A DNA stretch of 64,000 nt from Archangium violaceum (GTDB taxonomy: Bacteria > Myxococcota > Myxococcia > Myxococcales > Myxococcaceae), in NCBI RefSeq assembly GCF_016859125.1, contig NZ_CP069338.1, positions 4,093,501-4,157,500 on the forward strand. Reading direction: 5' to 3'. How positions within the stretch are numbered: position 1 is the first letter of the stretch; every line of letters begins with the position of its first letter. The position numbers were made by a program, and so were the translations under genes. Under the pieces are notes generated by a model that made no database searches, had not been told where the DNA came from, and saw nothing but the letters and a program-made list of their open reading frames with translations. Below are positions 41,256 through 64,000 of the stretch, one piece after another.

Positions 41256-42011
41256 TCACGCGAGCGGAGGCGCCCATTCTCTCACATCGAGCCTCAATGC
41301 GGACTCGGTTGCGATCGCCCCCTGGATTCTCCTGAGAGTGCCCGAAGCGCTGCCCCCGAGTCTGAAGACCATGACTGCCTCGGGTTTATCACGTGGGATC
41401 TTGGTGCAAACCATGGCCGCGTCGTGCCTCTCATACAGACCACAGTGGGGACCGGTGGGAACCGGTCTTGTGAATCCAAGACGGTCCATCACCGGATCGA
41501 GGTGTGAAAGAATGTCTGGCTCATCGCCTGTGACTATGGTCCTGCAGCGCTGCGGCATCCTGTCAATTCGGAAGCTCGACAAAGCTCTATATGCCAACAT
41601 TTCGCGAAAAGTCTCGAATTGATCGTGAAGAGCACCGCCCCGCGCATGTCGCTTCGTCACTCTTGCATCAGCTCGTGCCGCCAAATCGAGATCGTAGAAG
41701 ACATGCAGGGGCATCATGTCATCGGAATTATATCCGATGAGCAAGAACCGAGGATGGGGCTCGACCAACTCCTCCGTGTAGCATGTGAGTACACGCCGCG
41801 CCGAGAAATCCAGCCGAGGATAGGTCAGAGGTCCCATGCTTTGGCCCATACGGGTCAGGAACCAGCGATAGAACGGAGGCAAGGGGCGACCGGCAATCCG
41901 CTCGATCTGGGCGAGCTCTTCGGGGGTGCTGCCCTGCCACTGCTCGGCGAGCCCTGGAACAACCCTCAGGAGAAAATCCTCCATTTCAGGCTCTGGATTT
42001 AGTGTTTGCAC
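41256..42011 (-). CDS. SUKH-like (SMI1/KNR4 superfamily) immunity protein (module 2)
   Basis: A 251-residue protein. The N-terminal part (EDFLLRVVPGLAEQWQGSTPEELAQIERIAGRPLPPFYRWFL) has the SUKH pattern W-x-G, IE-x-x-x-G-x-x-LP-x-x-Y-x-x-F. SUKH proteins are immunity factors that bind cognate nuclease or deaminase toxins. A GTG start at 42011 overlaps the original end of the toxin gene (unshifted stop TAA at 41999-42001); ATG 41984 is an alternative. It is intact although its toxin is frameshifted. It is homologous along its full length to the module 3 protein. Confidence 0.75.
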   Translation of the reverse strand: MQTLNPEPEMEDFLLRVVPGLAEQWQGSTPEELAQIERIAGRPLPPFYRWFLTRMGQSMGPLTYPRLDFSARRVLTCYTEELVEPHPRFLLIGYNSDDMMPLHVFYDLDLAARADARVTKRHARGGALHDQFETFREMLAYRALSSFRIDRMPQRCRTIVTGDEPDILSHLDPVMDRLGFTRPVPTGPHCGLYERHDAAMVCTKIPRDKPEAVMVFRLGGSASGTLRRIQGAIATESALRLDVREWAPPLA

Positions 42012-43140
42012 TGGTCCTGGTCTCCGGGGCAGAGTAGCAAAGGAACGATGAGTTCGCAGGTTTTACATGGGGGGACGGTCTTGCCATGCTCAAACGTATC
42101 GACGACGATCTTGTTCGTGGGCGCATCGCGGAACTGGATCGGCGCCGATGTCCGCTTTCCCTTACTGTGGAACCACTGTTCGGTGAGCGCGCTTGGGTAG
42201 GCCCCCCCGTCCCAAGCGAGCAGGAGTGCTTTTGGGCAGCACAGACTCCCGGAGGGTACGCTGCGGCCTCTTCCCGATGTTGATCGCTATATAGGGCAAG
42301 TTCCTCCGCGTCCGCCCATCTCTGTACCACTTCCGACGAGTCACCGCAGCGCTTCAACACGCGCGAGTGAATCTGCCCTCGCGTGTTGTTGTAAGCCTCT
42401 TCTTCACCCTTCCGGCTATCGATCGAAAGAGAACCCATAGGTGCGTGCCATCCGAGTTCCTCAACAGCGGCACAGAATTCCACAAACGTCACAGCCGACT
42501 GGTCTGCATACTTCTGTCCGCACTTGCATTGGACCACCCCCAGCATCGTCGCCAAGTGGCGCCCCTTCTTGGCTTTCACCATCGTATCGAGCTTCGAGGC
42601 CAGAGCCGAGGCGTCGGCCTTCGTCTTTTCCGTTTCTTCTAGCGGGTCATGTTGCTTGCCGCACAGAGGGCATGTGTCCTCTCCGGTGAAGGCCGTGACG
42701 AGCCCGGTCGCTTGGAGCACTCCCATCATCGTTGCTGCGTTGGCCGGGCTGCCGCTCGGCCCGCAGTTGTTGAGCATGGGGTCGCCGAGCAGCTGGACGC
42801 TCTTCCCCTCGATCTTCACGTTCATGGAGCCAGGGCCCACGAAGCTCGTGGGTCCTTCCACGTTCGAAGAGACGATTCCGCCTCCGGTCCCCTTGCTGGC
42901 CACGTCCCCCATGGAACCGAAGGTGGCGCCCCTGATCGCCACCTTCTTCCCCCCAATCGTCACGCTCTTGGAGTAGCCCTTCGGGTCCGTTCCGCTCTTA
43001 CCGATGTTGGGCAACGGCGTCGGAACGAACGGCGCCGGCGGCCCCGGCATCTTGCACACGTTGGGTAACGTCGCCGCGGCAACCCCGTTGCTCCCCTCGG
43101 TCACCGGGGTCTTCGGACCATTCACTGTGACTTTCGACAT
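41986..43140 (-). pseudogene. PAAR-like (DUF4150) toxin with frameshifted deaminase-like domain (module 2)
   Basis: N-terminal 1-125 is a PAAR-like DUF4150 domain (VCKMPGPPAPFVPTPLPNIGKS, GDVASKGTGGGIVSSNVEGP, LLGDPMLNNCGPSG), the spike-tip adaptor of type VI secretion effectors. A cysteine-rich middle follows (TCPLCGKQHD, VVQCKCGQKYADQS). At the C-terminus YPPGVCAAQK breaks off: adding one C to the CCC run at 42234-42236 (GGG on the plus strand) restores CAAPKALLLAWDGGAYP, SALTEQWFHS and VPPCKTCELIVPLLLC, matching the intact module 3 toxin. As it stands the last 90 residues are nonsense (Ser/Arg-rich), so the toxin is inactive. Start ATG 43140. Confidence 0.8.
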
Positions 43141-43527
43141 TGGGACTTCCCCCTCATGGAACCTGCGGAGCCTGCAGGAGCATCGCACCCCGCAGCCCGG
43201 AATCAGAGCCTGCCATCTGTTACCGCGCAGCTTAGATGGGGGAAATCGGCCCGGAATCGGACCGACTGGATGATGGAAGGAGCCGTGGGGGCGTGGGGAG
43301 GCCCATCACCCAGGAGGTCCGGGTCAAAACATGACGGGTGAGGTAGTGCGCGAGCCCCAGGAGGGCGGGGACCGTGCGGCAGGGAGTGCCGCTCCGAGGG
43401 CCTGGCGTGGGCGCGGAGAAAAAGGAGGCCCGTGACGTGTAGCAGCACGGCACGGGCCAGGGCTCCGCGCAGACAGTGGAGAAAGAGAAGCGGAGCGGCC
43501 GAGAAATCATCCGGGTGGCGAAGACAG
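43141..43527. other. Leader and non-coding stretch upstream of module 2 toxin
   Basis: The 50 bases before ATG 43140 (minus) are nearly the same as those before the module 3 toxin at 44601: both read CTCCT, then AGGCTCCGCAGGTTCCA and GAAGTCCCA before the ATG. The motif CTGTTACCGCGCAG (43217-43230) recurs at 56896-56909. The remainder has no credible gene. Confidence 0.5.
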
Positions 43528-44103: not shown

Positions 44104-44600
44104 GGCGCCACCTTATCAGCCGGAAGCCCCGGGCAGGACCCGGCCCGTGCGAGAACGCGCACTCCCGAGCGGGGTGAAGCGCTCCTCGAGGGCCCCCGGG
44201 AGAGGCAAGTCCCTCAGGCCGTTGGGGGACCAAACGGGCGTCCCGCCTTCACTGGGAGCGAGACCTCTCGTGAAACAGGCTCTTTCGGCGTCGGATTGAC
44301 TCAGGCCGCGCGGGGTGCCGTCGCGGGGCTCGACCTGACCCACGAGTGCGTGGACACCGCGTACGCGGAAATCAATGGTGAGCGCTACCGAAGCGAGGAG
44401 TGGGTTTCGTCACGTTACGAGCGCCGAAGGTATGGAAGGCCCCCGGATACAAGGCCCCGAGCGACTGCTGGGGCGACATGGGCGCCGCAGCAGTCGCTCG
44501 GGGGCGTGCTGCGAGCGCTGGTGATGGCAGGCCATGGTTCCGGGCCGGAGGGTGCTATTCTCCTGTAGGCTCCGCAGGTTCCAAGAGGGGGGAAGTCCCA
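44104..44600. other. Non-coding stretch with leader of module 3 toxin
   Basis: About 500 bases without a credible gene. The last 50 form the conserved leader shared with module 2 (TAGGCTCCGCAGGTTCCA, ribosome site GAGGGGGG). The area 44104-44300 may hold the promoter of the CHAT fragment. Confidence 0.4.
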
Positions 44601-45827
44601 ATGGCGAAAGTGTCAGTGAATGCTCCAAAGACCCCGGTGACCGAGGGAAGCAACGGGGTTGCCGCGGCGACGCTGCCCAACGTCTGCAAGATGCCAGGGC
44701 CCCCGGCACCATTCGTACCGACGCCGCTGCCCAACATCGGCAAGAGCGGGTCGGATCCGAAGAACTACTCCAAGAGCGTGACGATTGAGGGGAAGAAGGT
44801 GGCCATCCGGGGCGCCACCTTCGGCTCGATGGGAGACGTGGCCAGCAAGGGGACCGGGGGCGGGATTGTCTCCTCCAATGTGGAGGGCCCGACGAGCTTC
44901 GTGGGCCCCGGGTCCATGAACGTGAAGATTGAGGGGAAGAACGTCCAGTTGCTCGGTGACCCGATGCTCAACAACTGCGGACCGAGCGGCAGCCCGGCCA
45001 ACTCGGCGACGCTGATGGGGGTCATTCAGGTCCCCGGCTGGATGCTCACGGCCGTCACGGGAGAGAAGGAATGCCCTCTCTGCGATGAAAAGCATCAATC
45101 CGATGGCGCACTGAAAGAGACGGACGCGACGAGGGAGGATGCCAAGACACTGGCGAAGGCGCTCACCAAGAACAACCAAGGTCCTGATCAGAGCCGGAAG
45201 TTCCCCTCGCCGAGAACTGACACAGGAAGAATGCTCGGCGTGGTCCGGTGTTCGTGCGACCAGAGGTATGCAGACCACTCGAGCAGGACGGAGCGGGTGT
45301 TCCGCGAGATCGTCAAGGATGAACTCAAATGGCACGCCCCCGCGGATGGTGGCCTCGATATTTCGATTGTCCGCAAAAATGCAGAAACAGGACAAAACGA
45401 AAACATCAGACTCAAAAAGGTCAGAGCATTCACCGAGAAGCTCTGCGAAAAGCAGGGCCAGGACGTGAGTCGTGTGGAAAAGGCATGGAGTAAAGCCAAC
45501 CAACTTCACGAAGAATGGCTTCGGGACACCACACATCCCGCCCACTACCCCCCAGGGAGCTGTGCCGGTCCCAAGGCACTCGTGCTCGCTTTGGATGATG
45601 GAGCCTACGTCAGTGGCCTCACCGAGCGGTGGTTCCACAGTGCCAAGGGGCGGACCGAAGGGAAGGTCGAGTACTTCCGCAGTGACCGAGGTGAGGTAGA
45701 TCTAGGCTCCTTTGGTCACGGAGAGAGCGTCCCTCCGTGTGGGTCCTGCAACATCATTCTACCCTTGATGCTCTGCACCAAAGGCAAGAGCAAGGAGATG
45801 AAATGCCAGCACAAGAACAAGAGGTAG
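44601..45827 (+). CDS. PAAR-like (DUF4150) polymorphic toxin with deaminase-like C-terminus (module 3, intact)
   Basis: A 408-residue toxin. Residues 1-125 are the PAAR-like DUF4150 domain, almost identical to module 2. The middle has two Cys pairs (ECPLCDEKHQ, VRCSCDQRYADHS) suggesting a zinc ribbon. The C-terminal domain carries a deaminase-like site: Cys321 in GSCAGPKALVLALDD, Glu342 in GLTERWF and Cys380/Cys383 in VPPCGSCNIILPLMLC. The CA(A/G)PK...TE/AE...PCxxC layout recalls Bd3614/APOBEC-like deaminases, where the Glu sits about 21 residues after the first Cys. It would be delivered by type VI secretion and edit nucleic acid bases; this is inference. The last 25 bases overlap the immunity gene. 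Confidence 0.8.
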   Translation: MAKVSVNAPKTPVTEGSNGVAAATLPNVCKMPGPPAPFVPTPLPNIGKSGSDPKNYSKSVTIEGKKVAIRGATFGSMGDVASKGTGGGIVSSNVEGPTSFVGPGSMNVKIEGKNVQLLGDPMLNNCGPSGSPANSATLMGVIQVPGWMLTAVTGEKECPLCDEKHQSDGALKETDATREDAKTLAKALTKNNQGPDQSRKFPSPRTDTGRMLGVVRCSCDQRYADHSSRTERVFREIVKDELKWHAPADGGLDISIVRKNAETGQNENIRLKKVRAFTEKLCEKQGQDVSRVEKAWSKANQLHEEWLRDTTHPAHYPPGSCAGPKALVLALDDGAYVSGLTERWFHSAKGRTEGKVEYFRSDRGEVDLGSFGHGESVPPCGSCNIILPLMLCTKGKSKEMKCQHKNKR

Positions 45828-49734: not shown

Positions 49735-49870
49735 ACCCAAGACGCGCCGTGGAGGGCGTGTTCTCCACTGGCCTGGCGCAGTGCTCGGGCGGCCTCCGTC
49801 AGCGGCCCTTCTCGGCCCCTCTGCACCAGCCCTCACCCTCCACACGGCCTCTATCCCGCCTATCCGCATC
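49735..49870 (-). repeat. Dispersed repeat copy C (reverse orientation)
   Basis: Reverse complement of the type seen in copies A and B: its right end GGCCTCTATCCCGCCTATC is the complement of the first bases of copy B (GATAGAGGCC / TATAGGCGGG), and the core CGGAGGCCGCCCGAGCACTG matches. It abuts the VIT-domain fragment. Confidence 0.7.
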
Positions 49871-50158
49871 CGCCACCGTCATCGCGCGGGCGTGCCTCGG
49901 GTCCACGTGGATGCGCGCCGACACCTGGAGCGAGCGGCCCGCGTCGGGCGGCAGGGGCCACGTGTAGCGCAGGTGCTGACCATCGAAGAGGAGCGTCTGC
50001 TCGTAGGCGAGCACCACGCGCTTGAGGGACTTCGGGGGCAGGGGGAAGACGCGAGCACTGAAGGTGGAGGCTCCCGCCCACTCCAGGAGCGCCGGATCCA
50101 CGTTGCGCCGCACCACGTCCTCGTACACCTCGCGGGCGCGCTTTCTTGCCTGGGGCAG
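49870..50158 (-). pseudogene. VIT-domain protein fragment
   Basis: On the minus strand an open frame encodes about 95 residues of a vault/inter-alpha-trypsin (VIT) domain: [52 protein letters not shown] and [11 protein letters not shown] domains are usually followed by a von Willebrand A domain; both that and the N-terminal start are missing. The fragment is squeezed between repeat copy C and a LysR fragment. Confidence 0.7.
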
Positions 50159-50162
50159 AGGC

Positions 50163-50284
50163 TCAGCGGCGAGGGAGGATGTCTCGTGCCATGTCGAGGA
50201 ACGCGCGCAGCGGGCGGGAGACGCGCGTCCGGTTGGGGAAGTACAGGAAGAGGCCCGGCACGGTGGGCGCCCAATCTTCCAGCG
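50163..50284 (-). pseudogene. LysR-type regulator, C-terminal fragment
   Basis: About 38 codons: [40 protein letters not shown] and a stop. LEDW-x-P...GLFLYFPxRxxxxxxLRAFLD is the usual C-terminal end of LysR regulators. The preceding part is replaced by repeat copy B, with GTATAG at the break (50284-50289). Confidence 0.75.
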
Positions 50285-50445
50285 TATAGGCGGGATAGAG
50301 GCCATGTTGAGGGTGAGGGCTGGAGCGCAGGTGCCGAGGAGGGCGGCTGAAGGGGGCCGCCCGGGCAGTGAGCCAAGCGGGTGGACAGGCCGCGCAGCCC
50401 CTTGAGGTACACGACTGCCCAGGCCGCGCTTCCATGGGGTGCGCG
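50284..50445 (+). repeat. Dispersed repeat copy B
   Basis: Begins GTATAG, then GCGGGATAGAGGCC, and carries AGGTGCCGAGGAGGGCGGCT and the GCAGTGAGCCAAGCGGGTGGA segment; these are shared with copy A at 39260-39420 in the same orientation. No protein is encoded. Confidence 0.75.
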
Positions 50446-50781
50446 GTAGGTGACTGGGCCTTTGCGGCTCGCCTCGACGACCTGCTGCCGCACCGCTGGC
50501 GACCTGCGCCCGACTCGTCCTGAGGCTCATCAGGCGGCAGCGACGTGGACCTCTCCAGCAGCGGCTGCGCCTACCACACGCGCACGGGCCCCGGTGTGCC
50601 CGCGGAACGCCGGCCGTCGGTCGGTTACCGGAGATCCGCTGTTGCGCTGGGGAAACCTCGCCGCATAACCGCACTCGCGCAACGGCCAGCCGTCGCAGGT
50701 GGAGCGACGCGCACCTCCTCGAATCTCAATTGCGTGGCCGGATTGTCCGAGCGCATTATCGGTCTTCATTTCCAAGGATGA
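50446..50781. other. Leader of the Avs-like gene
   Basis: 336 bases without a credible gene. AAGGATGA immediately before GTG 50782 can serve as a ribosome site for the large STAND gene. No promoter or operator is obvious. Confidence 0.35.
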
Positions 50782-53700
50782 GTGGTGGCAAAAACTCACA
50801 TTCGCGTTGACAGCGTCAGAGCCTCCCGGGACGGCCATGAGTACCACGAGGCGTGGGTCGCTCGAAAATGCCTGGGCCTGCTGCTCTCCCAGGATGATTT
50901 GGTGGGCGTGGCCATCGAAGGTTTCTCTGCCGACGATGAGGTGTCCAAGGACGCCACCGAAATCGCGGACGCCGTCTTGTACTACGGTCGACACGCGTCC
51001 TTTGTGCACGCGACCCGGGTCGTCGTCGTCCAGGTGAAGTATTCGAAGGCGGCCGAACTCACGCCCTTTCGCGCCGCAGATGCCAAGAAGACCGTCGAGA
51101 AATTTGCGAAGACCTACCGCGCGCACGTTCGCAAGCATGGCGTCGCCAAAACTCGCGCCAAGCTTCGCTTCGAGTTGGTCACTAATCGCCCGATCCTGGC
51201 CGAACTCGAACACGCAGTGCAGGGGCTGGCGGCGGGCACCGTGCTGCGCGGAACCGCGGCCGCCCAGGCCAAGCAACTCCAGGCGGCGGCGCGCCTGTAC
51301 GGAAAGGAGCTGGTCGAGTTCGCCCATCGGCTCCAGTTCGCCGGTCTGACCGGCGATCTGCAAGCGAGCAAGCGCGACCTAGCGACGGCCCTATCCGACT
51401 GGACAGCCGCGCGAGATTCCCTGGCACGGCTGCGGCTCAACGAGATCCGCAAGCTGGCCCGCGACAAGGCCGGCCTCGCGAGCGAACAGCGCAATGTCAT
51501 TTCGCGCAGTGATCTGTTGGCGGCATTGGAGATCGGTCACGAGGACGAACTGCTGCCGTGTCCGGCGAGCTTCCCGGACGTGGGGGCGGTTGTGGCCCGG
51601 GAACAGCTGGCGGACACGGCGACGTGTATCCCGGGTCTGGATCGGCCGTTGGTGATCCACGCCGATGGCGGCGTGGGCAAGACGGTCTTCCTCCGTTCGC
51701 TCGCGAGCCAGCTCGAGTCCGCGCACGAGGTCGTGTTGTTCGATTGCTTCGGCATGGGCCAGTACCGGGCGCCGAGCGACGCGCGGCACCTGCCAGGGCG
51801 TGGCCTACTGCATATCGTCAATCGGCTGGCCTGCCGCGGCCTTTGCGATCCTCTGCTCCCCGGGACCTACAACGACGAGGATCTCATCCGGACGGTGCGC
51901 TCGCGCTTGACGCAGGCGGCGGCAACCAGCGCCCGCGGCACCTCGGGCCGCCAGCTCATCCTGCTTCTCGATGCGATCGATAACGCTGGCGAGCACGCCA
52001 CGGCGCAAGACGAAACCTCGTTCCCGCGCTTGTTGTTGCGCGAACTGGCCACGGCCGGACGCATCGCCGGCATGCAACTGGTGGTCAGCGCGCGCAGCCA
52101 TCGCCGGGCTGCCGCGACGGGCGGCGTCGACTGCGCCGAGTTGAAGCTGCTGCCCTTCAGCCTTGAGGAGTCCCGCGCGTTCTTGCGCCCGCGGGTGAAG
52201 CGATTGACGGAAGCCCGCTTGCAGGTGGCCCAGTCGCGTTCGCGAGGCAATGGGCGCATCCTCGAACATCTCGCCAAGGACAACGCCGATCTCCTCGCGC
52301 CATCCGAAATCGACAAGGTCATCCAACTCGATGACCTGCTGCGAAAGAAGATCCAGGATGCCTTGCGCGAAGCCGAAAAGCAGGGCTACCGCGACGGCGC
52401 GATCCACTCGTTCCTGGCGGGCCTGGCCACCTTGCCGCCGCCGGTGCCGATTCGAGAGTTCGCCGAGGCCAATGGCCTGTCTGAGGGCGCGGCCAACAGC
52501 TTTGCCACTGACTTGGCCGACCTGCTGGAGCACACCAAGCACGGGATCATGTTCCGCGACGAGCCGACCGAAACGCTGATCCGTGAAACCTACGGAGTCG
52601 ACGAGGCTGCGCTACGCGCGTTGGTGAAGAACCTGCTGGCGATGCAGGAGCGCTCGCTATACGCCGCGACGACTTTGCCCAACCTGCTCAAGCAGTTGGG
52701 CGATGGCGACCAGCTGTTCGACCTGGCCTTCGATCCGCGCGTACCGACCTCGATCGCCAGTGCGGCAGGAAAGCAGGCGATCCGGCAGGCGCGGCTGCGC
52801 GCCGCGGTCGCCTTTGCGGCCAAACACGAAGACAGCGACCGGCTGGTGCCGCTGCTGGTGGAGTTGTCGACCCTTGCTGCGATTAATCAGCGGGGCACGA
52901 CGTATCTCCTCGACCATCCTGACTTGACGATGGCCGTGGGCGATAGCGACGCGCTGCGCCGGATGTTCGAAGCACGCACCGCTTGGCCGGGGTCGCGCCA
53001 TGCGCGACTGGCGATCGCGCACGTGTTGGCTGGTGACCTGGCCGATGCGCACCGGCACGCCCAGCGGCTGGTCGAATGGCGGCACCACTACTTCGAGCAG
53101 CCCGAAGGGCATCTTTTCCAGCAAGAGCGGCCCACGGCTATGGACATGGCCGCTATTCCCTTGTGCATGCTAGCGCGCGGGGATGGCAAGGACGCCGCGC
53201 GCGACCTGAACGGATGGCGAGATTGGTACGCCTACGAGGTCGCGGCGCAGTGCCTTGCACTCGCGCGTGCAGGCGAAGCGAAAGGGCTCATCTCCCCACA
53301 GGCTGTTCGTGAACTGCTGACGCCCACGCTCGCCAAGCCCAGCGTGCTGGCCGCTGCTGTGGCCTACGCCGAAGGGGATGAAGACCTGCAACGCCAGCTC
53401 CTTTCCGATCTTGCGGCTCGCAGTGCGACAATGGATGTAGGAGAGACGCACCATAGACCGCAAGAGCGCCCGATCCTCCTGGGCCTGCTTCGGGCCGCCA
53501 CGGTGGCCGCAGTGCGTGGTCTGCACGCCGAATCGAGCGCGATCGCTACCGCTATCGCCCTGCCGACGCCGGCGCTGTACACGTTCATGGATCAATGGTG
53601 GATCGGCGACGTCTATCCGTACGTGGCCATCCAGGTCCTCAAGGCCCTGGCGCAAGGCCGGGCGCCCGAAGAGTGCGATCTTCTGCCGGCCGAACTTGCG

Positions 53701-56700
53701 CCTATCAGTGCGTCCCTGACGCCGGGCCTTCGCGGCCAGCCCTACTGCGATGCGCTCAAACAAGCCCTGCAGGCGAGCGTGAAGAAGGGCACCGACGCCG
53801 ATTCCCCCAAGTCCCTGAGCTACGAGACCAAATCCTCCGCCGAGCGATTTCTCGACGGCCGCCTATCGTCCTTGCTGCGCATCGCGACTGCCTTCGCCCA
53901 TGCGGTGAAGCCGAGCTCCGGCCAGGCGGACGGTCGGCTCAAACCCCTCGTGGATGTCTGGTTTGAACTGCGCTCACAGAGCGACCACTACTACGGGGAC
54001 ACTGCGGCGCAACGTCAGCACGATGCGATCGGCGTGCGCCTGATCACCCTCGCGCTTGCTGTCGAGCCGGACTTCGCGACCGAGGAGGTCACGCAGTTCG
54101 TCGAGGCGGTGAGCGCGCCCGGCGTCACCAACGCGGGTACCCTTGTCGAGGTAGTCGGGATTCTGGCCGCACGCGCTCGCCACCACGTGCTGGCCGGCCA
54201 GACTGCGATCAAAGCGCGCCGGGCGATCGAGCGCGAGGACGAGGTGGGACAGCGAGCAACGCTATTTGCCCGCTTGGCCCGGGCAATGGGTAGCGCCAGC
54301 GGGAGCGAAGCCATCTCTTACTTCCTGCAGGGCCTGGAGCAGTTGGATGCGATCGGATCGGGCGACTGGGAGTTCGTCAGCCAGTTGATGCATTTTTCCT
54401 GCACCCTGCAGGGAAAGGGGATTCCCGACGCCGACAGCCACACGCTCTCGAACATCTGCGAGCTGAACTTGGGGGAAGCCCACAAGTTCGATTGGGCCAG
54501 CTACGGGGCGGCCCTGGCCAAGGCATCGGGGGTAAAGGGCATCGCCCGTCTGGCCCGGTGGGAAGACCGCAATCGCATCTCACTCAACTACACGCTGCTG
54601 CCGTACCTGAAGGCGCTGCTGGACAACCATCAGATCGATCCTGCGATCGCGTTGACTATGTTGCGCGTGTCCGACCCCGTCGAGCTGTGGTCCTGCGGCA
54701 CCGAGCAGTTCGTCGAGGCGCTGGAGGCGCGCGGTGCCTCGCCGACCATCGTCACCGAGCTGATCGAACAGTACCAACACAACAATCCCTCGCCGTTCGG
54801 ATCCAATGCCCCGCGCGCGCTGTCGCATTGGGCTTCGCGCGTGTTGGGCAAAGGGGCGGCGCACGCCGTCGGTCTGTCGGCGGCCGCGATGTCGATCGAG
54901 GCGACGACCCACGAGTACAACGAGCTCAACAACTGGCGGCCGCCGTCGCCCGGTGTCGACCCGCAGGAGCAACAGGCTGTCGCGGCGGCCGAGGCGGCCG
55001 CGGTCGACGCCTTGGCGCAGGACACCAACCCGCTGGACGAACTGTCCCTGGCCCGCGCCCTCGAGGCGCTAGAGGGCATTACTGGCTGGGGACGTCGCGA
55101 CGTCAAGCTGTTGGAATTGCTGCGCGTCAGGGTCGCGTTCGCGGATTGGCCTCGGTATATCGAACTCATCGCGCGCCAGCCCTCGCTGGATCTTTACGCC
55201 AAGGCGCACGAACTTGAGGCCTGCCAAAAGGCCTGGTCGCCTGCGTCGGCGGCCGTGCCCAAAGCCCTCACTGCTGCCGCCGACTGGATCGTGCGGGAGA
55301 ACGCGGATGAGTTCGTGTCCTCCGGACAGGTGTCGCCCTGGCAGCTCAAGCGAATCACCGAGCTCACCGGCGTAGATGCGCACGCGCTGACACTCGCCCT
55401 GCTGCAGGAGTATTCCCGGCCGGGCACCGACGTGCCAGCAGCGGTCTGGCTGAGTTTCGCGGCGGGCTTCAACGATACGTCCGCCGCCGGCGTCGGGCAG
55501 GCGGCGTTGACCCGATTGCTCGCCAGTGGAGCGGCGAAGCTCGCGGCGTTGGTGGAGGACGGGGCTTGGAACAAGCGGCTCTATCCGCCGGACGATTCGC
55601 TGCAGGTGGCCGCGGGTCTGATCTGGTTTGCCCTGGGTTCAGGGAACGCTGAGCGCCGTTGGATGGCCGCGCACAGCCTGCGCACCGCTGTGCGCTTGGG
55701 GCGCGCCGATGTGCTCGATGCCGTCGTGGCACGGTTCGATGAGCGCGACGCGGGCGCGTTCGGCGCACCCGAATTGCCCTTCTATTACCTGCACGCGCAG
55801 TTGTGGCTGCTGATCGCCTTAGCCCGCATCGCGCTGGAAGCGCCACAGGCCGTCGCTGCGCATCGCGCTTTCCTTGAGCGCACGGCCCTCGACACCGCCG
55901 ATCCGCACGTGCTCCGGCAGCACTTCGCGAGGGCGGCACTGCTCGCTTGCCAAGACGCGGGGCAGCTGCGGTTGTCGTCGGTCCTGCGCAAGGCCTTGGA
56001 GCAGGTCAATCGATCTCCGTTCGCGCTGCAGGTCACCCGAGAGTACCACGGCGGGTCGTTCTACGAATCGCGCCCGGCTGACCGGCCGGCGCCCGAGCCG
56101 GAACTGCACTTTGATTACGACTTCGACAAGTCCGATGTGTCCGGGTTGAGCGCGCTGTTTGGTCGCACCAGGTGGGACACGCACGATGCGATGACGGCGT
56201 GGGTGCGGCAGCACGATCGCCGGATCACCCACATGCACGAGTCGGGCGGACGCTCCGGCCACCGCCGTGAGGGTCGGAGAGCGGTCACCGACCAGCATCA
56301 TACCTACGGGGAGCAGCTGTGTTGGCATGCTCTGCACGCTGTGGCCGGACAGTTCCTGGCCCAGTATCCGATCACACGACGGCCCTACGACGACGGATGC
56401 CCGTGGCATGCGTGGATCCGGAGGCGGGTACTGACCCGCGACGATGGGCTGTGGCTCGCCGATGGCACCGAGTGGCAGCCGGTGGCCACCCGCGTCACCT
56501 TGCGGGAATTGGGCGAGGGCAGCGTGCGCATGACGGCCGATCCAGCGAAACTGCGCGCGTTGCTCGGGATCGACGCCGATGTCAGCGAGTGGTTGGTCAT
56601 CGACGGCAATTGGTACTCGGTGGAAGGCATCGAAATCGAAGTTCGGTCCGCCCTCATCCCTTCCGCGCAATCCGATCAGGCCGCCATGGAGCTGGCACGG

Positions 56701-57060
56701 GAGGAACCCTTCCGGGCGTACCTTCCGTATGAACTCGAAGAGGACAACTTGCGACCGTCGCAACCTCTGTCCGTGCCGTGGATTGTGCAACCTCACGCCG
56801 AAGGCGGCATCGACGAGACAGATGCACTTGGAGTGATCGGCGCGGCCCAGCGTTCGCGCCCTTCGGCCGACATCATCGCCTTTGGGGCGCTGCAGCTGTT
56901 ACCGCGCAGGCTTGTTGATGGGGATGTGAGCACGCTTGCTGATGGACTCTCCTTGGTGGCTCTATCGCCACACTGGGAGATGGGGAGGGGTTCGGGGAGG
57001 GGCGGCCCAGGGGTTGCGAAGGGAAGGCGGCCGACCCTCATGAGGGAGGGCACGGGATAG
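50782..57060 (+). CDS. Avs-like STAND NTPase with N-terminal DUF4297/Mrr-like nuclease domain and very large helical C-terminus
   Basis: A 2,092-residue protein. Residues 1-130 look like a PD-(D/E)xK nuclease (DUF4297/Cap4/Mrr type): VAIEGFSADDEV (Glu46, Asp51/52), then VVVVQVKYSK with QVK at 84-86. Residues about 230-560 are a STAND NTPase: Walker A HADGGVGKTVF (Lys300) and Walker B LILLLDAIDN (Asp397, Asp400), followed by an LVVSARSHRR sensor segment and a winged-helix-like part. Some 1,500 helical residues follow. This is the layout of antiviral Avs proteins, in which a phage protein bound by the C-terminal part triggers the nuclease. The last 55 codons, from about 56896 (CTGTTACCGCGCAG), look foreign, so the original C-terminus may be lost. 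GTG start 50782. Codon use is less GC-extreme than in the flanks. Confidence 0.8.
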   Translation: MVAKTHIRVDSVRASRDGHEYHEAWVARKCLGLLLSQDDLVGVAIEGFSADDEVSKDATEIADAVLYYGRHASFVHATRVVVVQVKYSKAAELTPFRAADAKKTVEKFAKTYRAHVRKHGVAKTRAKLRFELVTNRPILAELEHAVQGLAAGTVLRGTAAAQAKQLQAAARLYGKELVEFAHRLQFAGLTGDLQASKRDLATALSDWTAARDSLARLRLNEIRKLARDKAGLASEQRNVISRSDLLAALEIGHEDELLPCPASFPDVGAVVAREQLADTATCIPGLDRPLVIHADGGVGKTVFLRSLASQLESAHEVVLFDCFGMGQYRAPSDARHLPGRGLLHIVNRLACRGLCDPLLPGTYNDEDLIRTVRSRLTQAAATSARGTSGRQLILLLDAIDNAGEHATAQDETSFPRLLLRELATAGRIAGMQLVVSARSHRRAAATGGVDCAELKLLPFSLEESRAFLRPRVKRLTEARLQVAQSRSRGNGRILEHLAKDNADLLAPSEIDKVIQLDDLLRKKIQDALREAEKQGYRDGAIHSFLAGLATLPPPVPIREFAEANGLSEGAANSFATDLADLLEHTKHGIMFRDEPTETLIRETYGVDEAALRALVKNLLAMQERSLYAATTLPNLLKQLGDGDQLFDLAFDPRVPTSIASAAGKQAIRQARLRAAVAFAAKHEDSDRLVPLLVELSTLAAINQRGTTYLLDHPDLTMAVGDSDALRRMFEARTAWPGSRHARLAIAHVLAGDLADAHRHAQRLVEWRHHYFEQPEGHLFQQERPTAMDMAAIPLCMLARGDGKDAARDLNGWRDWYAYEVAAQCLALARAGEAKGLISPQAVRELLTPTLAKPSVLAAAVAYAEGDEDLQRQLLSDLAARSATMDVGETHHRPQERPILLGLLRAATVAAVRGLHAESSAIATAIALPTPALYTFMDQWWIGDVYPYVAIQVLKALAQGRAPEECDLLPAELAPISASLTPGLRGQPYCDALKQALQASVKKGTDADSPKSLSYETKSSAERFLDGRLSSLLRIATAFAHAVKPSSGQADGRLKPLVDVWFELRSQSDHYYGDTAAQRQHDAIGVRLITLALAVEPDFATEEVTQFVEAVSAPGVTNAGTLVEVVGILAARARHHVLAGQTAIKARRAIEREDEVGQRATLFARLARAMGSASGSEAISYFLQGLEQLDAIGSGDWEFVSQLMHFSCTLQGKGIPDADSHTLSNICELNLGEAHKFDWASYGAALAKASGVKGIARLARWEDRNRISLNYTLLPYLKALLDNHQIDPAIALTMLRVSDPVELWSCGTEQFVEALEARGASPTIVTELIEQYQHNNPSPFGSNAPRALSHWASRVLGKGAAHAVGLSAAAMSIEATTHEYNELNNWRPPSPGVDPQEQQAVAAAEAAAVDALAQDTNPLDELSLARALEALEGITGWGRRDVKLLELLRVRVAFADWPRYIELIARQPSLDLYAKAHELEACQKAWSPASAAVPKALTAAADWIVRENADEFVSSGQVSPWQLKRITELTGVDAHALTLALLQEYSRPGTDVPAAVWLSFAAGFNDTSAAGVGQAALTRLLASGAAKLAALVEDGAWNKRLYPPDDSLQVAAGLIWFALGSGNAERRWMAAHSLRTAVRLGRADVLDAVVARFDERDAGAFGAPELPFYYLHAQLWLLIALARIALEAPQAVAAHRAFLERTALDTADPHVLRQHFARAALLACQDAGQLRLSSVLRKALEQVNRSPFALQVTREYHGGSFYESRPADRPAPEPELHFDYDFDKSDVSGLSALFGRTRWDTHDAMTAWVRQHDRRITHMHESGGRSGHRREGRRAVTDQHHTYGEQLCWHALHAVAGQFLAQYPITRRPYDDGCPWHAWIRRRVLTRDDGLWLADGTEWQPVATRVTLRELGEGSVRMTADPAKLRALLGIDADVSEWLVIDGNWYSVEGIEIEVRSALIPSAQSDQAAMELAREEPFRAYLPYELEEDNLRPSQPLSVPWIVQPHAEGGIDETDALGVIGAAQRSRPSADIIAFGALQLLPRRLVDGDVSTLADGLSLVALSPHWEMGRGSGRGGPGVAKGRRPTLMREGTG

Positions 57061-57517
57061 GGCGAGGGGAATCGGGCGTCGCTCGCACAGCCCATCCAGG
57101 CCATCCGGAGTGCTGAATGTCCCGAGCGCGGGAGGCAGCGACTGCGTGCACCGCGCGAGGTCGATTCCGGAGCGGTCGAGCACCAGCACGGAGTCAGGTG
57201 GGTTCATTGCCCGGTTGCCGCAAGTCCGCTCCACGCGACGGGAGGAGCAGCCTTCCGGCAACCTGGATGGAGGCCGAAGGAGCGGAGGGCGGCAGCGGAG
57301 GCATCGGCGCTCGGCCCCGCGGCAACAAGTGCTGGAGCTGGCCGGAGTACGCAGCCAGGCCTGTCGCGGGGCAGACCTGTCCCCTCCAGCCTCGCTGTCC
57401 GACGCGGGCCCAGGGGTGTGGGCGTGCGTCGACAGGCCGGATTCGAGCGCCGTATGCGCAGTGGCTACCCCCAACCCGGTGGGCGGTTCGGAGCCGCTGC
57501 TGGCGCCTGGGTTCCCA
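57061..57517. other. Stretch without a recognisable gene
   Basis: About 450 bases between the Avs-like gene and the zinc protein gene. On the minus strand an open frame from about 57203 (MNPPDSVLVLDRSGIDLARC) has coding-like codon use, but no family is recognised; it may be a fragment. I see no terminator. Confidence 0.35.
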
Positions 57518-58123
57518 TCAGCTCACATGGCAAGCCCCGGCGAACGCCTGGTGGGGCAACCCGGCTGCGCGTGCCCAGGGCGGTGCCCGGCCGCATAAGG
57601 CCTGGGCGGCACGTGCCGCCACCTGCCTGGGTGCACCCTTGGCCCGCGAATCCAGCGAGGCCCACAGCTTCCCATCCGCCACCTGCCGGGCCCAGCGCGC
57701 CAGCGTCCGCCATCCTCGGGGCTTTCCCTCCGCTGGCAGCTGTCCACCCACCACGGCGCGTACCTGGGCCGCGCTCCAGCCGCACAGGCCCCAGAGCGCC
57801 AGCGCCAGCGCCATGGCCGCTCCCGAGAAGTGCTTGCGGGCCAGCACGGACGCAGGCACCACCGTCAGCACGGCCGTACACGCCTTGCAGCGGTAGCGAC
57901 GACAGGCCACCTCCCGCTTCACCGCCACCTTTCCGGGAGCCTCGGGCCCTCGCTGCTGCCGCTGTACCACGCCATGCCCGTGTATCCACACCTCGCCCCC
58001 TTCGAAAGCCGGCTGGCCGCACCGCGGACACGTGCGCGGGCGGGCCTCGTCGGTGGTGGACGGCGACACACCGCTCTGCCCTCTCATGCGGAGGACTCCC
58101 CCGGTTTCTGTCTTCTGCTCCAT
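57518..58123 (-). CDS. IS-associated zinc-ribbon/helix-turn-helix protein, probably 3'-truncated
   Basis: A 201-residue protein with a zinc ribbon (TCPRCGQPAFEGGEVWIHGHG, then RRYRCKACTAVLTVVPASVLARKHFSGAA, that is CxxC...CxxC) followed by a helix-turn-helix-like part (ALALALWGLCGWSAAQVRAVVGG, WRTLARWARQV). This combination is common as a first small frame of DDE-type elements in myxobacteria. The DDE transposase that should follow is not seen, and the last 40 residues look irregular, so it is a remnant. ATG 58123 lies before the zinc ribbon; the open frame continues further upstream without similarity. Confidence 0.55.
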   Translation of the reverse strand: MEQKTETGGVLRMRGQSGVSPSTTDEARPRTCPRCGQPAFEGGEVWIHGHGVVQRQQRGPEAPGKVAVKREVACRRYRCKACTAVLTVVPASVLARKHFSGAAMALALALWGLCGWSAAQVRAVVGGQLPAEGKPRGWRTLARWARQVADGKLWASLDSRAKGAPRQVAARAAQALCGRAPPWARAAGLPHQAFAGACHVS

Positions 58124-58513
58124 GTTCGTCTTGTCGCGGAGCCCGGGTGTGGGCGGCGGGTCTGTCCACCGCCAACCCACCCCTGCTCGTTGCCATGCTG
58201 CTCCGCCCTCCTCTCGCGCCCGCTCTATCCCTGCTCCTGGGCGTTGACACGGACCAGCAGGGGCGGACAGGCACGGGCAACCTTGGGGCTCTTCCCTCGC
58301 CATGCTTGCTGATGGAATCCTGGCCCCGCCCGGGGGCCTCTCCATCATTCTGCGTGCTCATCCGGGCCCACTTCTCCCTCATCCAGCGTGCTCGGTAACA
58401 GGGATGAGGGAGTCGGAGAGCCGCGAAGTAGCGAGGAAGTCGGGGAACAGGTGGCAACTGGACCCGGCGGAGCGAAGGCGGCTCGTGTTGGGAGTGAGCT
58501 TCAGGAGGGAAAC

Positions 58514-59839
58514 ATGGCCGCTACACGGAGAGCGGGAAACATGTCACCGGGACTTTTGAAGGTAGTGGAGAGAGCAAAGCAAGACCCGAAGGCACAGTTC
58601 ACTTCGCTGGCGCACCTGCTGGATGCGGGGGCGCTGACGCGAGCGTTCCACCGGCTCAGGAAGAACGCGGCGGTGGGCGTGGAGGGCATCACGGTGGAGC
58701 AGTATGGGTCGAATCTGCAAGCCAACATCCAGGCGCTGCATCAGCGGATGAAGACGGGCAGGTATCGACATCAGCCCATCCGTCGGGTGCACATACCGAA
58801 GGACAAGGGCAAGACTCGACCGATTGGAATCTCGTCCGTCGAGGACAAGATTGTGCAGCACGCGCTGCGCGAGGTGCTGGAGGCAATATACGAGGAGGAC
58901 TTCCTGGACTGCTCGTATGGTTTCCGGCCCGGACGAAGCGCCCATGATGCGCTGAGGGCCATTGACCCGGTCGTGACAAAAGGGGAGGTGAATTGGGTTC
59001 TGGAGGCGGACATCCAGTCCTACTTCGATAGCGTGGCTCGCACCATGCTGATTGAGATGCTCCGGAGACGGGTGGCTGACCGGTCGCTGTTGAGGCTGGT
59101 CGGAAAGTGTCTGCACGTGGGGGTTCTGGACGGCGAGGAATATTCCGAGCCGGAGGACGGGACAGCACAGGGCTCGATTCTCTCACCGCTGCTCGGAAAC
59201 ATCTATCTGCACCACGTGCTCGACCTGTGGTTCGAGGAAGAGGTCCGGCCGAGGCTCAGGGGCAAAGCGCACCTGGTCCGCTATGCCGACGATTTCGTCA
59301 TGGGTTTCGAGCGACAGGACGATGCAAGGCGCGTGATGGGGGTGCTCGGGCGACGGATGAAGAAGTACGGCCTCACGCTGCACCCGGAGATGACCCGCTT
59401 GCTGCCCTTTGGACGCCCGAAATTGGGGCAACAGGAGGGCAAGGGTCCAGCGACCTTCGACTTTCTCGGCTTCACGCTGTACTGGAGCCGAGGAAGGAGG
59501 GGAAGCTGGAGGCTGACCCTGAAGACACGCACGGCGAGGCTGCGGCGGGCAGTACAAGCCGCCTACGACTTCTGTTGGCGCCACCGACATGAGTCGATTG
59601 CAGAGCAACACGCTGGGCTCTGTCGACGCATCCAGGGGCATTTCAATTACTTTGGCGTGAACGGCAATATGAGGGCCTTGCAACTGCTCGTCAAAAGGAC
59701 GGAGCGGGCGTGGCACAAATGGCTGAACCGCCGAAGTCAGCGCTCGCGGCTCAACTGGAAGCGGTTTGCGGACCTGCTGAAGGATTTTCCGCTCCCGCGC
59801 CCCGTCATCCGGGTGCGCACCTGGGGTGTCACTCCATAA
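58514..59839 (+). CDS. ltrA: Group II intron reverse transcriptase/maturase
   Basis: A 441-residue intron-encoded protein. The reverse transcriptase blocks are in order: FHRLRKNAAVGVEGITVEQY, RRVHIPKDKGKTRPIGISSVEDKIVQ, YGFRPGRSAHDAL, EADIQSYFD, GTAQGSILSPLLGNIYL, catalytic YADD (257-260) in VRYADDFVMGF, and FDFLGFTLYW. The maturase domain X follows (RRIQGHFNYFGVNGNMRALQLLVKRTERAWHKWLNRRSQ). There is no HNH endonuclease domain. It would splice and reverse-transcribe its intron. ATG 58514 follows AGGAGGG. Although the gene is intact, the intron RNA lacks its 5' part, so it cannot move on its own. Confidence 0.93.
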   Translation: MAATRRAGNMSPGLLKVVERAKQDPKAQFTSLAHLLDAGALTRAFHRLRKNAAVGVEGITVEQYGSNLQANIQALHQRMKTGRYRHQPIRRVHIPKDKGKTRPIGISSVEDKIVQHALREVLEAIYEEDFLDCSYGFRPGRSAHDALRAIDPVVTKGEVNWVLEADIQSYFDSVARTMLIEMLRRRVADRSLLRLVGKCLHVGVLDGEEYSEPEDGTAQGSILSPLLGNIYLHHVLDLWFEEEVRPRLRGKAHLVRYADDFVMGFERQDDARRVMGVLGRRMKKYGLTLHPEMTRLLPFGRPKLGQQEGKGPATFDFLGFTLYWSRGRRGSWRLTLKTRTARLRRAVQAAYDFCWRHRHESIAEQHAGLCRRIQGHFNYFGVNGNMRALQLLVKRTERAWHKWLNRRSQRSRLNWKRFADLLKDFPLPRPVIRVRTWGVTP

Positions 59840-59855
59840 GCCACTTCCAACGGAA

Positions 59856-59889
59856 GAGCCGGATGGTGGAAATCTCCTCGTCCGGATCT
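59856..59889 (+). ncRNA. Group II intron domain V
   Basis: A 34-base hairpin: lower stem GAGCCGGA against TCCGGATC, with the catalytic-triad position AGC at 59857-59859, and a terminal GAAA tetraloop. Length and tetraloop are the domain V hallmark. It is followed by a domain VI-like hairpin (GCCCCGGC 59897-59904 with GCCGGGGC 59915-59922) and the 3' splice site after 59930. Confidence 0.8.
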
Positions 59890-59930
59890 GGCGGGGGCCC
59901 CGGCTGGGAAACTGGCCGGGGCTACCCTAC

Positions 59931-60770
59931 AACCTCGTGAGGTTTGCCCGAGGCGGAGGTACCAGGGACGCTACACGCCGTAACAGTTCCAGCCCGGTGA
60001 AGAGCAGGTGCGTGGTGCCGTCCGGCAGCGGGCGCTTCATGCGGTAGGCGATGCGGCCATCCTCCATTCGCGACAGGCGCTCCAGCGCCAGCGCGCCACG
60101 CGCCCCATAGCGGCACAGCCGCTCCAGCCCCTGCCTGTCGTTGGCATGGAGGTGCGTATTGGCATGCAGGGAGAAGCCTTCCAGCAAGGCGCACCGGGGC
60201 TGCTTTCGGGGAGGGGGCCGGACGTCCACCTCCGTCCAGCGCAGCCGTTGCTGTTGGGAGTGCGCCTGGTACGCCTGCAGCGCGTCCTCGGGCCCTTGCG
60301 CGGGCAGGGCTCCTCTTTTCTCCAGCAGGCGCAGCACCCGATGACGCACCACCCTCAGCAACTGCTCCACCTCACCTTGCGTGGGTGGCGGCAACGCCTC
60401 GAAGCGCACGCCGCCCTCCCGCGGCACGAAGACGCCGTCCGGCACCAGCGAGTGGAAGTGCGGCGTGACCTGCAAGGCGGAGCCGAAGAACTGGATGAAC
60501 GACACGGCCCCGGCCTGCCCACGACGGATACCCTGCCTCCGCGCTCGCCGACGCTGTAGGGCGAACACCGCGCGCAGGAAGACTGTGAGGACGTCCGAGA
60601 GCAGTCCCGCGTCCTTGAGGAGTACCCACCGCACCCGGTGCGGAAAGGACAGCGTCCACTGTCGATAAGGCACGTGCGGCAGCACCCGCTCCACCAGGTG
60701 CGCCGCCGTCACCTGCGCCCGCTTCGCATTGCAGGACGGGCACACCCCTCGTCCCTTGCACGAACGCAGC
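59931..60770 (-). mobile_element. IS91-family (Y2/HUH) transposase, middle part
   Basis: About 280 codons of an IS91-type transposase: the zinc motif [36 protein letters not shown], the HUH motif in [20 protein letters not shown], and the tyrosine region [21 protein letters not shown]. The C-terminal part is cut at [11 protein letters not shown] by the group II intron inserted in antisense, and the N-terminal part is missing upstream of SCKGRG, where the frame continues to 60895 without similarity. Dead element. Confidence 0.85.
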
Positions 60771-60981
60771 GCATAGGGGCAGTCCTCGGATGCGCCAGCA
60801 GATAGCCCTTTCGTTCCATTATCAGAAAACATCCTCCAGTCAGAAGGCGCCCACGTGTGTGAACGACGGCGCGGATGCGGTCGCTTCTGCTTCATCTGGG
60901 GATCGCAATCCCTTGAAGGGGGAGTGGGCGCTCGGCACTGAGATTGCCCGAACAGTTGGAGATGCTGGGGGGACGTGACGA

Positions 60982-61980
60982 TCAGTAGCGTCCAGGAAGA
61001 GGCAGGTGATCGCGGAAGATGGCCACGATTAATTTGTCTTTCGATTCAGTGACGGGCGGGTGAATGTGAACTCGGTTTACGTATCCGAATTTGTAGTGCC
61101 ACTCACAGTAGAGCGTCCGACTTTCGAGCACCCGCTCCCGGGCTCGCCGGCAGACCCCATCGTCCCGTACGTTGGGTTTTTCAGGCGCAACGTCAAATCC
61201 CCATCCGATGAGTCGTTGCTGGATGAGTTGATCTGTGACAGGCTTTGAGGGCTCGTTATCAAGCATGGGTTCATGGGGTGAGAGCCGCCCAGTTTCATCG
61301 GTAAACACCCAGGCGCCGTAGTCATCGAGTACTGCAAGGAGACGGTGAAGCGAGTCCCGAACGCGCGCATACCCGCCTTCAAAATGGCGGAGTTCACCCC
61401 AGACCCCATCCAAGAAGAATAAGTCGGGGTACGCATGCGAAGCGAGTGCTTCCAGTCCCGCCTCATTCGGTCGCTCGACATCGAAGGCATCACGGAAGAA
61501 TTCGCGGTGGGATGCCTCGTCCACCACGAAGTGGACCTGTGCGCTGCGCCCATCCACAACGACTTCACATCGGCCACGGAACGTACCCGGCAAGGGAATG
61601 CATGCGGTGGCTGAGCCCTCAGTCACTCGCTTGTGAGCGAGTGCGGTGGATGGTGACATAGCCACGTGGTTAGTGATGCTGACCTCGATAGCGGGCCAAT
61701 CCATCTCTTCGTCCCAGTAGGGGAGCGAGTTGAACAGTGCGGCGATTCGCTGGCTTACCTCTGGTGGTAGATTCAAGGGCAGATCCTGATTCCAGAGCAA
61801 CTCGGACAACTCGTTCGTGCCAAGAACCTGCTGCCGGAGCAGTTCGCTACTCGCTGCATAGGGTTCATCTCGCTCACGAGCTACGTCCAACCGGTCTAGG
61901 AATTGTTCGATACGCTCGATGTAGGCATCTCGGTCACTTCCATCCCAGGTCCAACTTGTCTCCTCCAAGACGAAGCGCAT
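60982..61980 (-). CDS. Protein of unknown function, third gene of DUF262-ATPase operon
   Basis: A 332-residue soluble protein I do not recognise. It has an N-terminal helical part ([34 protein letters not shown]), a middle with [31 protein letters not shown], and a C-terminal part rich in aromatic residues with [32 protein letters not shown] and a final [11 protein letters not shown]. The C-terminal [20 protein letters not shown]...[12 protein letters not shown] pattern looks like a small beta-rich domain, possibly RelE-like, with His residues that could be active. It starts four bases after the ATPase stop, so it belongs to that operon and may be its effector. Confidence 0.6.
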
Positions 61981-61984
61981 TGGA

Positions 61985-63103
61985 TTACCTCGGAGGTCCT
62001 CGCCGCACTCGAGACAGTGCGGCGACGTCGATCTGGTACTGGTCGAAGAACCTGCGCGGCCAGTTACTCAGGTTGCCGGTCTGGGTAAATCGGAGGGGCG
62101 TTGTCTGTGGCTGTCCATCGCTCCCCACGTCGAAGAAATGGACGAGTGCTTGTTCGGCACCAAGAACAAGATGCTCGCCGATAGCGCGGCGGATACCATT
62201 GAGCACGTGGTCACTATGGGTTTCCACTAGGACTTGAACCCCCGCTCCGGCCAGAGTTGCCAGAAATGTACCCATGCGAGACTGTCCCGCTGGGTGCAGG
62301 TGGGCTTCGGGGTTCTCGACAATTAGAAGTCCGTCCACGGGCGTGAATAGGCCTGCCAGAACGATGGGGAGGCTGTAACTCACGCCGAAGCCCATGTTGG
62401 GCGCACGCACCCACTCGCCGCCTGGAACCCGAAAGCGCAGCGCGGTGACTGAGGTGTTGGGGAACCAATCCGTATTGATTTCAGTAGGGCGAGCGATGTC
62501 AGACAGCCAAGCCTCTACTTGGTATTTGAGGAAGGTATCGGCCTCCTCGTGGCGGTGGGGGTGCAACCGACCTTTTGAGACCTTCTCCTTCAGTCCATGG
62601 AGAGCCAACACTTGGGCGCAGAACTCCCCCTGGACGCCGACACCAAGGTCCTCGGCTGGCCGGGCGCTGGCGCCCAGGACATCCCGAGGACCAAGCCGCT
62701 CGGCGGACAGGTAGGTGAACGCCCGGTTCGAGCCTCCGAGTGCCTGAGGAATTCGCTCTGGCCTTGATTTGATAGGCAGGTGCAGGAGCGTTTCGTCACG
62801 AGCGTCCAAGAGGAATCGGACATCTGTCCCATCATCCAAACTCGCAAGAAGCTCGATTTCAGAGGTGTCGACAGCCGTGTTGAGGTTGAGAATGTCTTCG
62901 GCGCTACCCAGTTCCAATCCGAAGGGACCGTTAAGCGGTACTGTGCTCGCCCCGGTGGTACTGGCCTCCCTTGCCAGGAGCAGGGCCTGGAGAATGGTGG
63001 TCTTCCCTGCTCCATTGAGCCCAGTGAGGACGGTGAGGGCTGCGAAATCGAGCGCGCACGAGGAGAAGCGTTTGAACCCAGTGATCTGCAGCTTCGTGAT
63101 CAT
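61985..63103 (-). CDS. OLD/RecF-like AAA ATPase (AAA_15/DUF3696 type)
   Basis: A 372-residue ABC-type ATPase of the OLD/RecF kind. The N-terminal ITKLQITGFKRFSS leads to Walker A GLNGAGKTT (28-36). The C-terminal half carries the combined signature and Walker B region (SYSLPIVLAG, LLIVENPEAHLHPAGQSRM) and the switch His in VLVETHSDHVLNGIRRAI. Proteins of this type are sensors or motors in defence systems such as PARIS (AriA) and Gabija/OLD. No TOPRIM domain is present. The ATG overlaps the DUF262 stop (ATGA, 63100-63103). Confidence 0.85.
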   Translation of the reverse strand: MITKLQITGFKRFSSCALDFAALTVLTGLNGAGKTTILQALLLAREASTTGASTVPLNGPFGLELGSAEDILNLNTAVDTSEIELLASLDDGTDVRFLLDARDETLLHLPIKSRPERIPQALGGSNRAFTYLSAERLGPRDVLGASARPAEDLGVGVQGEFCAQVLALHGLKEKVSKGRLHPHRHEEADTFLKYQVEAWLSDIARPTEINTDWFPNTSVTALRFRVPGGEWVRAPNMGFGVSYSLPIVLAGLFTPVDGLLIVENPEAHLHPAGQSRMGTFLATLAGAGVQVLVETHSDHVLNGIRRAIGEHLVLGAEQALVHFFDVGSDGQPQTTPLRFTQTGNLSNWPRRFFDQYQIDVAALSRVRRGPPR

Positions 63104-64000
63104 CCGGCGGCCTCTTTTAGAATGTCTCGTGCCACTTGGAAGCGCAGCTTGACCTTGGAGATATCGCCAGTCCCTTGGCTGATCGCGGCATTGTAGTCGT
63201 AGTCCCCCATCCTCTTGCGCGCGGCCTTGAAGATGGTTTCCTTGTGCGGCCTGAGTTGTTCGGGCTCATAATCTGCTAGCGCGGTTGCCCAACTCTCGAA
63301 CAAGGCCCTGTTAATAGGGCCGCGACGGCTTGCCCCAAGACGATACTTGCGGAACGCGGCGTTGCCGAACACTACCGCTGCAGTTCTCATCGCTCGTTCA
63401 AAGTCAGCGGAGAGCTTGAAGAGGTCAGAATCGGAGATTCCCTGTTGAGAGGGGTGGACCCCGTCTACTCGGCGTGTGAAGTCGAGCAAGAAAGAGTCCA
63501 AACTGTTGAACTCGCGGTAGTTGTTCAGGTCCGGCAGTGTTCGGAAGGCGCAGAACCGCAAGACCACTTCCCGGTCCGCCATGCGCCGCTCGTAGCGGAA
63601 AGCTCCGTCCGTCGCTTGATGGAAAGAGGACAGGCTCGTCAGGTTCTTGAGCAGGTCTCGAGAGCGCTTCCGGCTCATGCAGTGCCGGATCTCCTGTGCA
63701 GTGAGAGGACTGCCTCCTGTATTGATCCGGCGGAAGACATCGAACTTGACGTCGTCCGGCGTCTGCGGCTCGATGACATTGACGAAAATTTGCGTTTGCT
63801 GAAAGCGTCGCCGAAGGGCCGCATCGAGCTTGTCGAAAGTTTGCCCCTCAAGGCTCTTGAGGTACTCAAGATCCAGGAGAGGCTCTTTTTGGGTGACGAA
63901 GCTGTAGATTGTGGTGAGGCGCTGCACTCCATCTACCACCTGCATGGCTCCTTCGCCATCTTGGTTGAAGTAGAAGGCGGGTAGGGGGATACCCAGCAGT
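63100..64000 (-). CDS. DUF262 (GmrS-type/ParB-like) protein, 5' end outside window
   Basis: The frame is open to the window edge; about 300 residues are visible. The DUF262 core is plain: LLGIPLPAFYFNQDG, the signature QVVDGVQRLTTIY (DGQQR in most members, here DGVQR), FRRINTGGSPLTAQEIRHC and a helical rest. DUF262 is the nucleotide-binding/NTPase half of GmrSD type IV restriction enzymes and recurs in defence operons. There is no DUF1524 HNH domain at the C-terminus, so a nuclease would have to come from elsewhere. It is the first visible gene of the three-gene operon. Confidence 0.85.
   Translation of the reverse strand, partial: LLGIPLPAFYFNQDGEGAMQVVDGVQRLTTIYSFVTQKEPLLDLEYLKSLEGQTFDKLDAALRRRFQQTQIFVNVIEPQTPDDVKFDVFRRINTGGSPLTAQEIRHCMSRKRSRDLLKNLTSLSSFHQATDGAFRYERRMADREVVLRFCAFRTLPDLNNYREFNSLDSFLLDFTRRVDGVHPSQQGISDSDLFKLSADFERAMRTAAVVFGNAAFRKYRLGASRRGPINRALFESWATALADYEPEQLRPHKETIFKAARKRMGDYDYNAAISQGTGDISKVKLRFQVARDILKEAAG

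Follow-up and report, generated by a model that had tools for sequence, protein, structure and literature searches.

The open reading frame (ORF) at positions 50782-57060 of the window (64,000 nt of Archangium violaceum, NZ_CP069338.1, 4,093,501-4,157,500 of the forward strand; all coordinates given here are window positions) raises the question of which defense family so large a protein belongs to, and what its C-terminus is. The initial annotation read the product as Avs-like, with a nuclease ahead of a STAND NTPase, and noted that the region is rich in mobile elements; it left the class of the C-terminus unclear and suggested a possible new sensor class. The analyses below settle the class of the giant ORF and trace its odd C-terminus to transposon read-through rather than to a new sensor. 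The gene and the parts of its product are as follows.

50782..57060 (+): avs3-like ORF of 2,092 codons with a GTG start, comprising 2,038 native and 54 element-derived codons.
50774-50778 (+): AAGGA, a sequence resembling a ribosome-binding site, preceding GTG GTG.
50812..51534 (+): Cap4/DUF4297-type PD-(D/E)xK nuclease domain, residues ~11-251, with invariant E46, D63, Q84 and K86 and supporting fold matches.
51562..52332 (+): STAND/NACHT NTPase core, residues ~261-517, with Walker A K300, Walker B D397/D400 and a Pfam NACHT match.
52699..56481 (+): extended helical stretch spanning residues ~640-1900, with homology to the sensor of SeAvs3 in PDB, profile and fold searches.
56590..56895 (+): retained first half of a C-terminal beta-rich module, residues ~1937-2038, placed by alignment and an AlphaFold2 model of the Corallococcus exercitus relative.

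The length of the ORF is far above chance expectation, and homology to the C. exercitus locus begins upstream of it, at 50631. A PADLOC profile search returned Avs3a (E 3.5e-174) as the sole match among 5,027 models, with no match to Avs1, 2, 4, 5 or any other PADLOC model at E up to 1; a sequence search of the PDB returned only SeAvs3 (8dgc; E 3.7e-111). The NCBIfam Avs3a model (NF041816) scores the protein at 690.5 bits against a curated cut-off of 2,800, below the equivalog threshold, and the Avs3a profile aligns to it in two stretches, profile positions 1-802 and 1052-1976, the second of which covers the C-terminal half of the protein. Over its whole length the protein resembles SeAvs3 in sequence, profile match and predicted fold, and it belongs to the Avs3 family.

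An AlphaFold2 model of residues 1-640, built with 10 relatives (pLDDT 84.7), bears out the nuclease-STAND architecture that had been read from the sequence. Its best fold match is SeAvs3 (8dgc_A, E 1.3e-39, 30% identity), and VIA-align superimposes the model on 8dgc with a Z of 27.2 over residues 6-640 and an rmsd of 12.7, a value indicating that the domains probably differ in their relative placement. When searched separately, residues 13-251 match the DUF4297 protein of DUF4297-HerA (Z 17.2, rmsd 2.6), LmuA (Z 15.1) and Cap4 (Z 12.9), which places a nuclease fold at the N-terminus, and the matches of residues 261-640 are STAND ATPases, among them MalT, Apaf-1 and NLRC4. The Pfam NACHT match is just above its cut-off (28.1 vs. 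26.7 bits). In an 11-sequence alignment E46, D63, Q84, K86, G299/K300/T301, D397 and D400 are invariant, with the Walker A motif (GGVGKT) occupying residues 296-301. E46, Q84, K86, K300, D397 and D400 sit at the positions first assigned to them, while D51/D52, originally put forward with them, are not conserved; the alignment rules these two out as catalytic residues, and the conserved acid between E46 and the QVK motif is D63.

Within the Avs3 family, the intact relatives of the A. violaceum protein share 89% (Corallococcus), 52-55% (Cupriavidus and Ideonella) or ~40% (gammaproteobacteria) identity with it. In a maximum-likelihood tree built from 19 proteins, a fully supported split (100/100) separates a group of 5 from one of 14. 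A gene matching the Avs3b profile lies directly downstream in all five members of the smaller group, which includes canonical Avs3a, and in none of the 14 other loci, A. violaceum included, when these were searched at the locus level. Profile searches of the A. violaceum genome and of the genomes or plasmid records of the 13 relatives likewise found no Avs3b, although positive controls were found, and a scan of the genes next downstream in several relatives for a hidden Avs3b returned nothing. The root of this tree is arbitrary, its sample was drawn with the A. violaceum protein, and the split counts as one event rather than many independent ones. The pattern suggests that Avs3 has a solo branch, without an Avs3b partner. 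Annotation pipelines label the annotated members of this branch ‘hypothetical protein’ or ‘NACHT domain-containing protein’. Its spread in the Myxococcota was assessed in 39 genomes (one match, the A. violaceum genome itself) and by a scan of genome contigs. It is conceivable, at somewhat less than even odds, that the intact relatives form a separate single-gene Avs3 clade that works without Avs3b, escapes detection with the NCBI Avs3a model and, in myxobacteria and proteobacteria, may recognize a distinct range of terminases or some other packaging protein. A comparison of solo Avs3 with Avs3a/Avs3b would reveal the role of Avs3b.

The closest intact relative is encoded by C. exercitus AB043A (NZ_RAVW01000328.1; 2,146 aa), in a gene collinear with the A. 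violaceum ORF without a single gap over 2,038 codons (89% amino acid identity). The dN/dS between the two is 0.24 overall, 0.18-0.26 over most of the length and 0.48 in codons 1901-2038, which points to purifying selection on the gene before it was truncated. The truncation, which was missed initially, involves the following features.

56896..57060 (+): read-through tail, codons 2039-2092 and the stop, derived from a transposable element (which begins at 56897) and standing in for ~108 native residues.
56897..58400 (no strand assigned): 1,504-bp repeat element with ends TGTTACCG...CGGTAACA, defined by its repeat copies in the genome and lacking a target-site duplication at this site.
57518-58348 (-): ORF of the element, with a weak DUF6431 domain match.
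58401..59930 (+): group II intron without its 5' part (reverse transcriptase ORF at 58388-59839, domain V/VI at 59854-59930), which makes up the distal edge of the deletion scar.

Homology to C. exercitus ends exactly at 56896, the base preceding the element. The nine relatives first compared and canonical Avs3a all extend ~100 residues past position 2038, with conserved motifs, and a protein search of the A. violaceum genome recovered residues ~2036-2092 at five other places (73-96% identity). Residues 2039-2092 are thus foreign, the product of read-through into the element, and are not Avs sequence. The element has inverted ends and three further full copies in the genome (99.9, 96 and 96% identity); a 5-bp repeat (GTATG) borders one of the other copies, in the manner expected for a transposable element, whereas the copy at 56897-58400 has no such duplication. 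Many shorter relatives of the element ends are dispersed through the genome. On the far side, the group II intron lacks its first ~490 nt where the TGTTACCG element begins, as judged against another intron copy that starts with GTGCGCC; its domain V/VI matches Rfam RF00029 at 36.2 bits, slightly below the gathering score of 40. Since there is no target duplication and the element abuts a 5'-truncated intron, the simplest account is that it inserted together with a deletion on one or both sides.

The C-terminal third, with the part that was lost, was modeled on the intact C. exercitus relative (AlphaFold2, residues 1501-2146, pLDDT 77). The two significant PDB matches of this model are both chains of 8dgc (E 3.2e-24; Z 20.1, model residues 95-635 on chain residues 1535-2082), and because the match reaches chain residue 2082, the segment absent from A. 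violaceum corresponds to an ordered part of SeAvs3. For the lost segment the model predicts, in most parts confidently, strands plus a helix that belong to a single beta-rich module, whose strands begin at model residue 437. This module is intact in the relatives, but it is not complete in the A. violaceum copy, where native sequence stops at residue 2038; its loss marks damage, not another family.

The loss of a conserved, ordered module makes it most likely that the A. violaceum copy is impaired, a non-functional or weakened remnant. The frame is open over 2,038 codons and, together with the dN/dS of 0.24, this indicates that the gene was probably functional before truncation; the element looks recent, however, and the open frame therefore says little about present function. 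An unlikely but not negligible alternative is that the protein functions as an Avs3 in spite of its truncation, able to do without the last ~108 residues and unharmed by the 54 foreign ones. The nuclease, the ATPase and most of the sensor do remain intact with all their motifs in an uninterrupted frame, but the missing segment shows conservation across every intact relative as well as canonical Avs3a and has an ordered counterpart in SeAvs3, and the near identity of the element to another copy leaves little time for decay to have appeared. As a deletion that arose naturally, this allele puts the need for the C-terminal beta module to the test.

We consider it improbable that the truncation is instead an assembly artefact in which a misjoin at the repeated element hides an intact gene. 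Near-identical element copies are a classic cause of misjoins, but a misjoin should leave the missing 3' part beside another copy of the element, and when 1,001 bp of the C. exercitus 3' end were used as a query, the 12.68-Mb single-contig genome yielded a match at the truncated locus only; moreover, the downstream group II intron is truncated at the same element.

Least probable of all, with only a few chances in a hundred, is that the protein belongs to a novel class of Avs sensors whose C-terminus resembles that of no known Avs protein: its ~23% full-length identity to canonical Avs3a, its NCBIfam Avs3a score far under the cut-off and the clear separation of its clade (100/100) from Avs3a/Avs3b proteins favor this reading, but it is rejected by the PADLOC and PDB searches, by the alignment of the C-terminal half to the Avs3a profile and by the SeAvs3 fold of the C-terminal third, which has no other significant match. 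The sensor belongs to a known class, that of Avs3, given the profile alignment over positions 1052-1976 and the significant match of the C-terminal third to 8dgc alone, so that the class of the C-terminus, earlier called unclear, is now assigned. The remark that the protein is longer than most fails as well: the SeAvs3 chain has the same length, 2,092 aa, and intact relatives from the same clade measure 2,146-2,211 aa. The locus therefore holds a damaged copy of a system whose kind is known, from a solo branch that has received little annotation.

The surroundings agree with the mobile-element-rich setting noted at the outset. Three adjacent genes ~4 kb further on (60982-63945, -) match the PADLOC models NsnC (E 2.1e-84), NsnB (E 2.3e-97) and NsnA (E 3.6e-84) and form a candidate defense system; the NsnA match covers only profile positions 109-382, and the start of this gene may lie outside the called ORF. 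With these matches near the avs3 gene, the area is a small cluster of defense genes and mobile elements. An IS91-type transposase lies at 59927-60895. Just upstream of the avs3 gene is a ~175-bp repeat (50282-50458, and inverted at 49765-49880) with dozens of copies in the genome at about 75-88% identity. Two Tox-PAAR-like proteins are encoded at 41986-43188 (-) and 44400-45827 (+), and the latter is followed by a weak SMI1/KNR4 match, an arrangement resembling effector-immunity pairs.

According to published work, Avs1-3 recognize the large subunit of the terminase (PMC12724215), and Avs1-4 act via nuclease effectors that cut the DNA of phage and host alike (PMC12931631). By homology, the long C-terminal region of the intact protein would recognize a protein of the phage packaging machinery, the terminase large subunit being the likeliest; the ATP-bound STAND domain would then drive oligomerization, and the N-terminal Cap4-like nuclease would be activated to cut DNA and abort the infection. 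Terminase sensing followed by nuclease activation is the most likely mode of action that we infer for the intact form. The trigger may differ from that of SeAvs3, since the canonical partner Avs3b is missing. In A. violaceum, the TGTTACCG-ended element directly follows codon 2038 and the final ~108 codons have been deleted; the encoded protein keeps the nuclease, the ATPase and most of the sensor, has gained 54 foreign residues and has lost half of the C-terminal beta module. Our main reading, to which we assign a probability of roughly 0.85, is that the gene encodes an Avs3-family STAND nuclease of a clade without Avs3b, truncated by the element and likely non-functional or weakened.

Among known systems, SeAvs3 (AVAST type 3; PDB 8dgc, solved with the terminase of phage PhiV-1) is the closest in kind. 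It has the same domain order, the same nuclease and ATPase motifs, the helical sensor and the C-terminal beta module fold in common with the A. violaceum protein, with 30% identity over residues 1-640; the A. violaceum copy differs in the loss of the final ~108 residues and in having no adjacent Avs3b. The C. exercitus AB043A gene is likewise without Avs3b but, unlike the A. violaceum copy, is intact with its native C-terminus. The Avs3a/Avs3b two-gene systems (NF041816/NF041817; e.g., Klebsiella variicola pKPN692_2 and Janthinobacterium p356839) have a homologous large subunit, at ~23% full-length identity for canonical Klebsiella Avs3a, and possess the Avs3b that A. violaceum and its 13 relatives lack. 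Avs4 (8dgf) and Avs5 (9jap) share the general nuclease- or SIR2-STAND architecture, and their fold matches (E 1.4e-7 and 7.3e-6, respectively) are far weaker than that of SeAvs3 (1.3e-39). DUF4297-HerA, Lamassu LmuA and Cap4 have the nuclease fold in common with residues ~13-251 and differ in their sensing modules.
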